A DNA stretch of 64,000 bases. Origin: Dongia deserti. Lineage in GTDB: Bacteria; Pseudomonadota; Alphaproteobacteria; Dongiales; Dongiaceae. The notes beneath the pieces are model-generated. The model saw nothing but the letters and a program-made list of their open reading frames with translations. It did no database searches and had not been told where the DNA came from. The stretch spans positions 310,001 through 374,000 of the forward strand of contig NZ_QORW01000002.1 of assembly GCF_003574735.1 (NCBI RefSeq). The letters are read 5' to 3'. The translations under genes and the position numbers were made by a program. Of the stretch, positions 13,417 to 28,114 are shown piece by piece. Each line of letters starts with the position of its first letter. The stretch's first letter is position 1.

Positions 13417-14094
13417 TTAGCGCGGCGGCAGCTCCGGCTGCACCACCCGCGTTTCATGGCCGGCATCCTGCCAGCCTTCGATGCCTTCCTCGTACCAGTG
13501 CACGTTGCTGTAGCCGTAGAGGATGGCGCGCTTGGCGGCATTCCAGCTGCCCCAGCAATCGGGATGGCAGAAGACGACCAGCGGCTTTGACGGATCGCCG
13601 CCCGTCAGCTGCTCGAGCCACGAGCGGTACCAGTCGTCGAGTTTCGGTGTGAGCTTGCCGTCGCCAGCTCCCGGCAGCCAAACGCTCCCCGGAATCGTGC
13701 GATGCGGCGGCGGCACCCATTCTTCCGCGGCAATAGTCTCCGGCTTGTGCGGCAGCGGCCCGACATCGACCAGCACCGGCTGCTTCTCTTCGATCAGCGC
13801 GGCGAGCCCCGCTGTCTCGATCACCCTGCCGCCGGCGATGGTCGCCGGCACCGGCCCGCCCATCGGTCCGGTCCAGAAGCCAGCCGGCTCGGGCACGGTC
13901 TCTTGCGCCTGGGCACGCGCGATGCACAGCGGGATCAGCAACAGCAGCGCAATTGTCGCGAAGGTGGCCAGAAAGCCCCCAAGCTGGGGGGCTGGGGTGG
14001 AGGGAGCGAGCGAAGATTGTCTGACAACGAGGCGCGGCTTCCCCCTCCGCACCCTCCCCCATGTCGGGGGAGAGGAAAAGAACCAGGCCTGCAT
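13417..14094 (-). CDS. PQQ-dependent catabolism-associated CXXCW-motif protein
   Basis: The mature part (from QAQETVPEPAGFWTGPMGG) is a rhodanese-like periplasmic protein of the family linked to PQQ-dependent alcohol catabolism; the defining motif is FCHPDCWGSWNAAKRA near the C-terminus. A hydrophobic signal (FLATFATIALLLLIPLCIA) precedes it. The only ATG in frame is at 14092-14094, two bases after the SoxYZ-like stop, and the 40 residues between it and the signal are translated from a CCCTCCCC-type repeat at 13974-14074. The true start may instead be a GTG inside the repeat. It is the last gene of a three-gene unit with the carrier and metallohydrolase. The start is uncertain; the family call is firm. 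Confidence 0.8.
   Translation of the reverse strand: MQAWFFSSPPTWGRVRRGKPRLVVRQSSLAPSTPAPQLGGFLATFATIALLLLIPLCIARAQAQETVPEPAGFWTGPMGGPVPATIAGGRVIETAGLAALIEEKQPVLVDVGPLPHKPETIAAEEWVPPPHRTIPGSVWLPGAGDGKLTPKLDDWYRSWLEQLTGGDPSKPLVVFCHPDCWGSWNAAKRAILYGYSNVHWYEEGIEGWQDAGHETRVVQPELPPR
13974..14074. repeat. CCCTCCCC/GGGGAGGG palindromic element, copy 1 (translated)
   Basis: G-rich and C-rich ends (AAGCCCCCAAGCTGGGGGGC at one side; CCTCCCCCATGTCGGGGGAG at the other) flank a core that is almost identical, in reverse orientation, to the core at about 28053-28098 (shared GCGAGCGAAGATTGTC). It lies within the reading frame of the CXXCW protein and is open through its whole length in that frame. Confidence 0.8.
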
Positions 14095-14096
14095 GC

Positions 14097-14900
14097 TCAG
14101 CTGCCGCTCGCCGGCACGTCGAAGCTTTGCTCGAACACCGCGTCGTCGCTGTCGCGCACGACGACCTTGAGCTTGCCGGGCAGATCCTCTGCGCGCGGCA
14201 CGAAGCGGAAGCCGATGGCGGGATCGGTCGCCAGCGAGATGTCGTTCTCCATGCTGAGCACGCGTTCGTCGTTGAGCGTGATCTCCACCTGCTGCACATA
14301 GCGCATCGGCGTATAGAGCCGCGTCAGCTGGTCCATCTGCATGCCGTTGAAATTGGGATGCCGGATCAGCACTTGCGCATCGACCGGCTGGCCGGCCGCC
14401 ACCTCGCCGCTGAGTCGCAGCTTCATGCGCCCGATCTGCGCCAGGGATTCCGCTTCTCCCGCGCCGACCGGCGCCGAGCAACCGCCGGCCGCCTTCACGA
14501 ACTGCGCAGTCTCATGCAGCGCCCCGTCCGACGTCTCCGCCACCGCATGCATGTAGGTGTACTGGTTGACCCGCACGCGCAGCGTCAGCAACGATGCATC
14601 GCCACGCGGTCCATAGCTGACTTTCGCCGCGACCGGTCCCGGATTGTCGTCGATCACGACGGTCAGGCCGGTGACATCGCTGCCTGGCTTTGTGGTGACG
14701 GTGATCGGCACGAGTGCCGCGTCGAGCGCGCGCTTCGGTGCCTCGAGCGCGATCAGGTCCGCAGCGGCGACCGCCGCGCGATCACCGAACACGGCTTCCC
14801 TCAGCTCCGCCCAATGCGCCTGGCGCTCCGCCTCCTCGTCCGCCAGCGCGGGAGTTCCAAACATCCCAAGCAGAGCAAGAGAAAGCGCCAGCTTTCGCAT
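14097..14900 (-). CDS. Quinoprotein dehydrogenase-associated SoxYZ-like carrier
   Basis: This periplasmic protein of about 267 residues is a fusion of SoxY-like and SoxZ-like domains. After a signal peptide (MRKLALSLALLGMFGTPALA) the SoxY-like half ends in the Cys-bearing arm KAAGGCSAP, and the SoxZ-like half shows IRHPNFNGMQMDQ and PAIGFRFVP. In Sox systems the carrier holds sulfur intermediates on this Cys; in the quinoprotein-associated branch the cargo is unproven. I take the ATG at 14900, with GGGAG upstream; an ATG at 14915 that overlaps the metallohydrolase stop is also possible. It sits between the metallohydrolase and the CXXCW gene. Confidence 0.85.
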   Translation of the reverse strand: MRKLALSLALLGMFGTPALADEEAERQAHWAELREAVFGDRAAVAAADLIALEAPKRALDAALVPITVTTKPGSDVTGLTVVIDDNPGPVAAKVSYGPRGDASLLTLRVRVNQYTYMHAVAETSDGALHETAQFVKAAGGCSAPVGAGEAESLAQIGRMKLRLSGEVAAGQPVDAQVLIRHPNFNGMQMDQLTRLYTPMRYVQQVEITLNDERVLSMENDISLATDPAIGFRFVPRAEDLPGKLKVVVRDSDDAVFEQSFDVPASGS

Positions 14901-14905
14901 CTTGA

Positions 14906-15829
14906 TCACTCCCATTCCAGTTCCTTGTAGGCCTGGGTGACGTTGCGGCCGTGATAGGCATCGAACAGGGTCCAGCGGCCGCGTTCTCCGGCGGCGACCT
15001 GTTCGACCGCCGCCTCGATCCCTATGTTATCCCGGACCGCTTGGCGCGTCTCTTCGACCAAAGTGCGAAGATAGCGCTCCAAGTCTGCCGCGCCGGCCGG
15101 CCAGTTTACCTGCTCCGGCCCGTGGCCCGGTACGGCCCGTGCAGCGCCAATGCGTTTCAACGCTTCGAGTTCCGCAAGCCAGCCGTTGAGGCTGCCGTCG
15201 AGCGCCGGCACACGGCCGACGAACAGCAGGTCCGACGGGAACAAGGTGCCGGTCTCCGCATCGAACACGCTGAGATCGTTGTCGGTATGGGCCGGCCCGT
15301 GGGCCTTGAGGCGCACCACCCGCTCGCCGAGATCGACCTCCGCCGCGTCCGCCACGTCGAGCGTCGGCATGACGACGGGCCCGGCAGCACCGGCGCCCAG
15401 GATCTCCTCCAGCCGCTGTTTGTAATAGTCGCCACGCGCCGCAAGCGCCGCCGGCAGGCGTGCATGGCCGATGAAGTCGGGCTTGTCCTCGAGGAACGCG
15501 CCCGCGCCGAAGATGTGATCGGGATGGACGTGGTTCAGCACGACCGTGCGGATCGGCAGCTGGGTCTTTTCGCGGATCATGGCCCGCAACGCGGCGCCGT
15601 CGCCGAGGCTGCCGCCCGGATCGAACACCAGCACGGACTCCTGGCCGACGATGAACCCGGCATTGGCGATCGCATCGGCGTTCCCGGGCGAAGCGTCCTC
15701 ATCCACGCCGCGCCGCACATGGATGCCGGGCGCGACCTCCGTGAGGATGAACGAGGACGCGCGCGTCCGCGTGAGCGGCAGGCAGCACGCGCACAACCCG
15801 CCGAGGAGGAGATGGCGGCGATGGAGCAT
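14906..15829 (-). CDS. Quinoprotein relay system zinc metallohydrolase (MBL fold)
   Basis: The 307-residue metallo-beta-lactamase-fold protein starts with an RR-containing signal (LHRRHLLLGGLCACCLP), so it is exported. The metal motif is NHVHPDHIFGAG (HxHxDH), with the further ligands in AHGPAHTDND and VPGHGPEQV. It matches the SoxH-related hydrolases that accompany PQQ dehydrogenases and SoxYZ-like carriers. It leads a three-gene unit. Its ATG (15827-15829) is the edge of a heptad repeat, and no Shine-Dalgarno sequence is visible upstream. Confidence 0.85.
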   Translation of the reverse strand: MLHRRHLLLGGLCACCLPLTRTRASSFILTEVAPGIHVRRGVDEDASPGNADAIANAGFIVGQESVLVFDPGGSLGDGAALRAMIREKTQLPIRTVVLNHVHPDHIFGAGAFLEDKPDFIGHARLPAALAARGDYYKQRLEEILGAGAAGPVVMPTLDVADAAEVDLGERVVRLKAHGPAHTDNDLSVFDAETGTLFPSDLLFVGRVPALDGSLNGWLAELEALKRIGAARAVPGHGPEQVNWPAGAADLERYLRTLVEETRQAVRDNIGIEAAVEQVAAGERGRWTLFDAYHGRNVTQAYKELEWE

Positions 15830-22305: not shown

Positions 22306-22422
22306 TCCCTCCCCGAGGCGGGGGAGGGTTAGGGTGGGGGCGAGGCGGTTCAACTCGACGCGATTTTCGCTGGAGAGAACAACCCCCGCCCCAACCCTCC
22401 CCCAGCTTGGGGGAGGGAGAAG
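22306..22422. repeat. CCCTCCCC/GGGGAGGG palindromic element, copy 3
   Basis: CCCTCCCCGAGGCGGGGGAG (22308-22327) and CCTCCCCCAGCTTGGGGGAG (22397-22416) form two hairpins. Between them GGTTAGGGTGGGGG (22327-22340) is inverted as CCCCCGCCCCAACC (22383-22396). The central 40 bases differ from copies 1 and 2. It fills most of the gap between the methyltransferase and the arylsulfotransferase-like gene. Confidence 0.8.
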
Positions 22423-27970: not shown

Positions 27971-28018
27971 GGCGGCACGCAGCCCCTCACCACCTTCTCT
28001 TCCTGTCACGCAGTTCTG

Positions 28019-28114
28019 CCCCCCTCCCCCATGTGGGGGAGGGCCGGGGTGGCGGGAAGCCGCGCCTCGCTGCCAGACAATCTTCGCTCGCTTCCCCTCC
28101 CATGGTGGGGAGGA
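28019..28114. repeat. CCCTCCCC/GGGGAGGG palindromic element, copy 2
   Basis: It opens with CCCCCTCCCCCATGTGGGGG, passes through a core (GGGAAGCCGCGCCTCGCTGC, then CAGACAATCTTCGCTCGC) shared with copy 1 in the opposite orientation, and ends with CCCCTCCCATGGTGGGGAGG. It lies between convergent genes and ends ten bases before the radical SAM stop. Confidence 0.85.

Follow-up and report, generated by a model that had tools for sequence, protein, structure and literature searches.

Can a dispersed palindromic repeat that normally lies between genes become coding sequence for part of a conserved exported protein? This question is raised by a locus in a 64-kb window (the whole stretch of DNA that was analysed) of a 6.1-Mb alphaproteobacterial genome, here called G000. 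From the letters of this window, an earlier note had claimed that the reading frame of a CXXCW protein passes through a complete repeat without a stop, adding about 40 residues before the hydrophobic signal. The locus was compared with those of three sister species (G001, G002 and G003), of which those with named records are MAGs and the G001 genome is incomplete. Start codon positions were compared in a sample of 48 orthologous CXXCW operons from many alphaproteobacteria.

A repeat copy lies in the open reading frame of a CXXCW protein gene

The features of the locus, together with a related repeat copy elsewhere in the window, are as follows.

13420..14094, minus strand: CXXCW protein gene (TIGR03865) with a rhodanese-like domain, read from the conserved ATG (NCBIfam match, ORF end); stop codon at 13417-13419
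14092..14094, minus strand: probable ATG start codon, +2 nt from the SoxYZ-like stop (TGA GC ATG), an offset shared with orthologues
13976..14076, minus strand: repeat element of subfamily A, with two GC-rich hairpins around a centre and degradation at its right end (84% to consensus, E 8.5e-24)
13975..14076, minus strand: element-derived part of the frame, residues 7-40, SSPPTWGRVRRGKPRLVVRQSSLAPSTPAPQLGG (codon table)
13906..13974, minus strand: hydrophobic signal region and predicted cleavage motif, FLATFATIALLLLIPLCIARAQA/QE (Kyte-Doolittle; cleavage site inferred)
14097..14915, minus strand: SoxYZ-like carrier gene, upstream in the same operon (TIGR04557, 242 bits)
14906..15829, minus strand: quinoprotein relay zinc metallohydrolase 2 gene, same operon (TIGR04559, 368 bits)
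28013..28100, plus strand: second copy of the same repeat family, truncated, intergenic (82% identity over 89 nt; L014)

The CXXCW protein matches TIGR03865 with 175.2 bits against a cut-off of 128.05 (NCBIfam, E 9.7e-52), includes a match to the Pfam Rhodanese domain (PF00581, E 3.4e-9), and carries the CxxCW-type motif (CHPDCW, in ...FCHPDCWGSWNAAKRAI...) of a PQQ-dependent catabolism-associated CXXCW protein (TIGR03865). Its neighbourhood is that of quinoprotein accessory genes, arranged in the order TIGR04559, TIGR04557, TIGR03865, all on the minus strand. The SoxYZ-like gene, which ends here with the TGA at 14097-14099, adjoins the CXXCW gene in most orthologues.

Read on the minus strand from ATG 14092-14094, the frame continues through the element and ...MQAWFFSSPPTWGRVRRGKPRLVVRQSSLAPSTPAPQLGGFLATFATIALLLLIPLCIARAQA/QETVPEP... 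into the TIGR03865 core, bearing out the stop-free passage that had been claimed. The gene comprises, in order, the ATG, five codons, the repeat copy, a hydrophobic segment, a cleavage motif and the rhodanese-like core. The element match spans 101 nt and corresponds to consensus positions 1-106, with the degraded part at the outer right end (consensus AGGGGGA). Although the leader before the signal is indeed about 40 residues long, only 34 of these, residues 7-40, are supplied by the repeat (QAWFFSSPPTWGR...QLGG, SSPPTWGR...QLGG). These 34 residues are strongly basic, including several Arg, one Lys and no acidic residue. Hydropathy in the region that follows reaches a Kyte-Doolittle peak of 3.2 at IALLLLIPLCI. 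When the whole codons of the element are removed, a leader of ordinary signal-peptide length is left (MQAWFF-FLATFATIALLLLIPLCIARAQA). Codon usage of the leader differs from that of G000 genes (scores of -11.5 and -7.5 per 20 codons), as expected because it derives from a repeat. The leader RNA contains hairpins, but its folding energy is not better than that of shuffled sequences (z -1.17), and an Rfam search gave only sub-threshold GC-rich chance matches, none exceeding the gathering threshold.

The repeat family is largely intergenic and turns over rapidly

The family was described from an alignment of 26 copies. Intact copies are approximately 110-117 nt long and have a centre of about 50 nt with a hairpin of the CCCTCCCCC-loop-GGGGGAGGG type on either side; the centre sets apart subfamily A (112 nt) from subfamily B (116-117 nt). 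At 60 bits or above, G000 has at least 39 copies, G003 has 31 and the incomplete G001 genome has 14. In contrast to the dozens in these relatives, G002 has two element matches, so that either G002 has lost the family or amplification took place separately elsewhere. Other genera of the order commonly carry single hairpins, that is to say half-elements. Nearly all of the 74 copies in G000 and G003 occupy narrow intergenic gaps, and coding contributions are found for only two or three of them. The copy at 28.0 kb, which had been proposed to share its core with the copy in the CXXCW gene, is a truncated member of the same family.

The description of the repeat as mobile-type holds in part. The G002 site is empty and most insertion sites differ between species, and the copy alignment reveals terminal inverted repeats (TCCCCTCCCCC ... 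GGGGGAGGGGGA) as in MITEs. However, inspection of 39 near full-length copies found no consistent flanking direct repeat that would represent a target-site duplication, and no RAYT gene (Y1_Tnp, PF01797), as would be expected for RAYT-mobilised REP/BIME elements, was found in G000, G001 or G003. G000 and G003 have only five element-bearing gaps in common, and in three of the five the copies belong to different subfamilies, therefore turnover is fast. Such differences could arise either by repeated targeting of the same gaps or by swapping of centres. Gaps L180/L157 and L182/L154 (G000/G003) resemble the CXXCW site in having an element in both genomes but of differing subfamilies.

Some further features of the family were observed. 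In most full copies of subfamily B, GGAGGGTTAGGGTG or a sequence close to it is present (for example, window positions 22307-22420 and L191:6031-6147), which consists of a ribosome-binding-site-like stretch and a GTG at a spacing of 5-6 nt, and which might start translation of downstream genes. At L155:1585-2244 on the minus strand (G003 C7), the 3' end of an ECF-type sigma factor gene falls within an element, from which its last residues (..VPSPDTGEG) and stop codon apparently derive. Another element seemingly inside a gene (L003) was set aside, since the ORF is suspected, from its translation only, to be an antisense frame.

The ATG upstream of the repeat matches the conserved start position

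In the 48 orthologous operons, the CXXCW ATG lies between -1 and +20 nt from the SoxYZ stop, and the most common offset (9/48) is +2, as in G000. The L103 orthologue has the identical TGAGCATGC. The comparison of orthologues for the usual start that the earlier note had suggested thus yields a conserved ATG matching the one upstream of the repeat. The distance from the SoxYZ stop to the core is 194 nt in G000 and 206 nt in G003 vs 43-121 nt in other orthologues, and the excess in G000 is accounted for by the element. From start to core, orthologues have a median of 26 aa (range 17-37). The Shine-Dalgarno pairing of ATG 14092-14094 is weak (-2.3 kcal/mol), and is equally weak at this position in G001 and G002.

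Between the element and the mature part of the protein there is no in-frame ATG or GTG. The start-like codons past the element are CTG 13969 and TTG 13939, both before the mature part, with the TTG located within the hydrophobic core. Because the start is conserved and no normal start follows the element, the element is placed inside the gene, between the start and the signal core. Most likely, the repeat lies within the CXXCW gene and lengthens the n-region of its signal peptide by 34 residues. The proposal that the repeat serves as coding sequence would most likely be correct, given that the upstream start is the conserved gene start.

An open frame through a copy is common by chance

The copy at 13976-14076 is stop-free in all three forward frames, and these frames are open in 39, 40 and 33 of the 58 full-length copies. 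Of the 48 genes that begin next to a copy, the frame is open back through the copy in 21, almost all of which have a normal start codon 3' of the element. Openness of the frame is no greater than chance and says little alone, and luck of one in three suffices to explain the kept frame at the CXXCW gene. What is exceptional is the combination of a conserved ATG upstream of the element with no normal start codon after it. The exceptions are the CXXCW gene in G000 and a membrane-protein gene in G003, both of which have an in-frame ATG just upstream of the element. Only a TTG follows the element in the latter gene, and a TTG plus a CTG in the former.

L170 (G003 C5:233528-233641), ATG at 1476: subfamily B element, in frame, before the signal of a membrane protein

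This second gene has the order of conserved ATG, in-frame element and hydrophobic signal (MIPRLLRPPPPPSRGWVGVGALFQLGSVFARESNPHPGPPPTWGREILVAISLFSFVASTTPAFAHTSERAF...). Its ATG is +7 nt from the stop of the preceding short-chain-dehydrogenase-like gene (name read from sequence), and the orthologues in G000 and G002 have an ATG +6 nt from the same stop and carry no element. By their predicted signals, the elements of both genes are in the n-region of a signal peptide, two cases being too few for statistics.

Relatives carry either an empty site or a different subfamily

The CXXCW site is empty in G002 (MVEAADASHSRSQLGARRRLPAIVLTLLLS...) and in G001 (MRVKTVALAIVLALS...), where the ATG comes right after the SoxYZ stop. 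In G003, a subfamily B copy occupies the same place, in the same orientation, as the subfamily A copy of G000. From the conserved ATG, the G003 frame reads MIEPLGTLPIPSPEAGEG and stops inside the element, and hence no close relative shares the in-frame copy of G000. Because this frame is lost, there is no sign of selection acting on the leader itself. By this reading, translation of the G003 gene must restart, either at the element's GTG at +62, which follows a GGAGGG at a spacing of 5 nt (-9.8 kcal/mol), or at the ATG immediately after the element, which is preceded by GGAGGGGGA.

A tree of three genes groups G002 with G000 (ultrafast bootstrap 93). The simplest reading would be two independent insertions, in G000 and in G003, and a centre swap between copies together with loss in G002 is a possible alternative. 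A single ancestral insertion was rejected as a simple reading, given that the subfamilies differ (A vs B) and that the element-free G002 groups with G000. A candidate relic of the element in G002 was unsupported, with 281 of 500 shuffled sequences matching equally well.

Alternative starts and gene decay

Two other in-frame codons of the G000 gene are relevant to where translation starts.

13969..13971, minus strand: CTG after the element, alternative start, with GGGGG 4 nt upstream (anti-SD duplex -7.8 kcal/mol, spacer 4)
14050..14052, minus strand: GTG within the element, alternative in-frame start, directly after GGGGGAGG at improper spacing (codon table)

The most serious rival to translation through the whole repeat is a start at the CTG directly behind it. 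The element would then be an untranslated spacer whose terminal GGGGG serves as the ribosome-binding site, and the protein would begin with the short signal peptide MATFATIALLLLIPLCIARAQA. This CTG is the one candidate for the non-ATG start just before the hydrophobic segment that the earlier note had named as an example of a refuting case. It is in frame with the G run 4 nt upstream, and the corresponding position in G003 has an ATG preceded by a GGAGGGGGA stretch. However, CTG is very rare as a start codon, a conserved ATG is available in frame upstream, and the G run forms the 3' arm of a stable predicted hairpin. The n-region from the CTG would also be without Lys or Arg, whereas at least one such residue is present in 46 of 48 orthologues. 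Because the pre-insertion leader (MQAWFF-FLATF...) would likewise have neither residue, this charge argument favours the ATG only weakly. Overall, we consider a start at the CTG unlikely.

The repeat might instead provide both the start codon and the leader through GTG 14050-14052, whose equivalent in G003 is well spaced. In G000, however, the purine run lies in a hairpin and directly adjoins the GTG, at a spacing of 0-1 nt, and the best properly spaced duplex is only -4.3 kcal/mol, making this start very improbable. A different proposal is that the gene is decaying, the insertion having ended useful translation or export, such that the open frame is accidental. The frequency of open frames through copies agrees with this, but the core is complete and free of stops, exceeds the family cut-off by a wide margin, retains the conserved FCHPDCWGSWNAAKR motif, and still shares approximately 77-78% identity with its nearest relatives. 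Decay is thus quite unlikely.

Discussion

We conclude with good confidence that the repeat was probably inserted after the conserved ATG, that the gene is translated through it, and that the basic leader lengthens a removable Sec n-region. A dispersed palindromic repeat, normally intergenic, would have landed in G000 a few codons past the conserved CXXCW start, in the n-region of the signal peptide, with a net change that preserves the frame. Ribosomes that finish the SoxYZ-like gene could re-initiate at the adjacent ATG (TGA GC ATG) and then read the repeat. The predicted product has a signal peptide with an n-region of approximately 40-47 residues, compared with an orthologue median of 7. 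This leader would be removed together with the Sec signal peptide, leaving the mature periplasmic protein unchanged.

The element, the open frame, the conserved position of the start and the empty site in relatives are directly observed. From these we infer the use of ATG 14092-14094, Sec export, cleavage and the neutrality of the insertion. Sec export and cleavage should work because the added residues are basic and both the hydrophobic core and the AQA/QE motif are intact. Tolerated export of the leader-bearing protein therefore seems likelier than the altered export that had been suggested.

In-frame translation of repeats has precedents in Rickettsia (RPE) and enterobacteria, according to PMC2229807 and the review PMC10969869. 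In Yersinia YPO1552, PMC2759123 and PMC2229807 describe an RU-2/YPAL MITE that is translated in frame and forms part of a predicted signal peptide. As in the present case, a small non-autonomous repeat lies in the predicted signal peptide of an exported protein, and in both cases this is a prediction; the organism is unrelated and the comparison concerns the way of working, not the sequence. The same papers indicate that hydrophobic residues of the YPO1552 repeat can join the signal and that the protein is thought to be new. Unlike this, the CXXCW repeat would do no more than lengthen a basic n-region, in a protein that is old and widely conserved and whose orthologues fix the ancestral start.

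Palindromic repeats in frame in protein genes are described for Rickettsia RPEs (Ogata 2000, 2002, as cited in PMC2229807 and PMC10969869). On these accounts, the likeness is that a conserved alphaproteobacterial protein gene carries, in frame and apparently without harm, a palindromic insert of about 100-150 bp. RPEs are described there as occupying many ORFs, whereas the family studied here is almost wholly intergenic, and the likeness is one of description, not of sequence. BIME/REP doublets, including Bradyrhizobium Br-REP (PMC5082802), are likewise intergenic hairpin units whose copy number shifts fast between relatives, but Br-REP consensus sequences differ from this repeat, and the RAYT gene was not found in G000, G001 or G003.

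With its copy inside a conserved frame, downstream of a conserved start, the CXXCW gene would work, by analogy, like the RPE and intragenic-MITE cases, and is a clear but not unprecedented example. Beyond the known cases, it allows the locus to be compared before and after insertion, its conserved start codon settles the frame, and there is a second independent instance. Since an n-region is under loose constraint and is removed together with the signal, a repeat inserted in frame may become coding while the mature protein stays unchanged.

Whether signal-peptide n-regions are a preferred, tolerated landing zone for translated repeats is a more speculative matter, and we regard this idea as rather doubtful at present. 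Two genes, CXXCW in G000 and the membrane-protein gene in G003, carry different subfamilies in the same relative place and orientation. On this reading, subfamily B with its GGAGGGTTAGGGTG could also be usable as a portable start.

For annotation, the locus serves as a warning that gene-calling programs may place the start too far downstream, at a false TTG or CTG, or mistake leaders encoded by repeats for errors. The CXXCW gene offers a natural example of an intergenic repeat turned into protein sequence, accompanied by empty sites and a conserved start codon. It suggests a ground for tolerance, namely that the insertion fell in a part of the gene whose product is discarded, and it makes testable the hypothesis that translated repeats concentrate in the n-regions of signal peptides.
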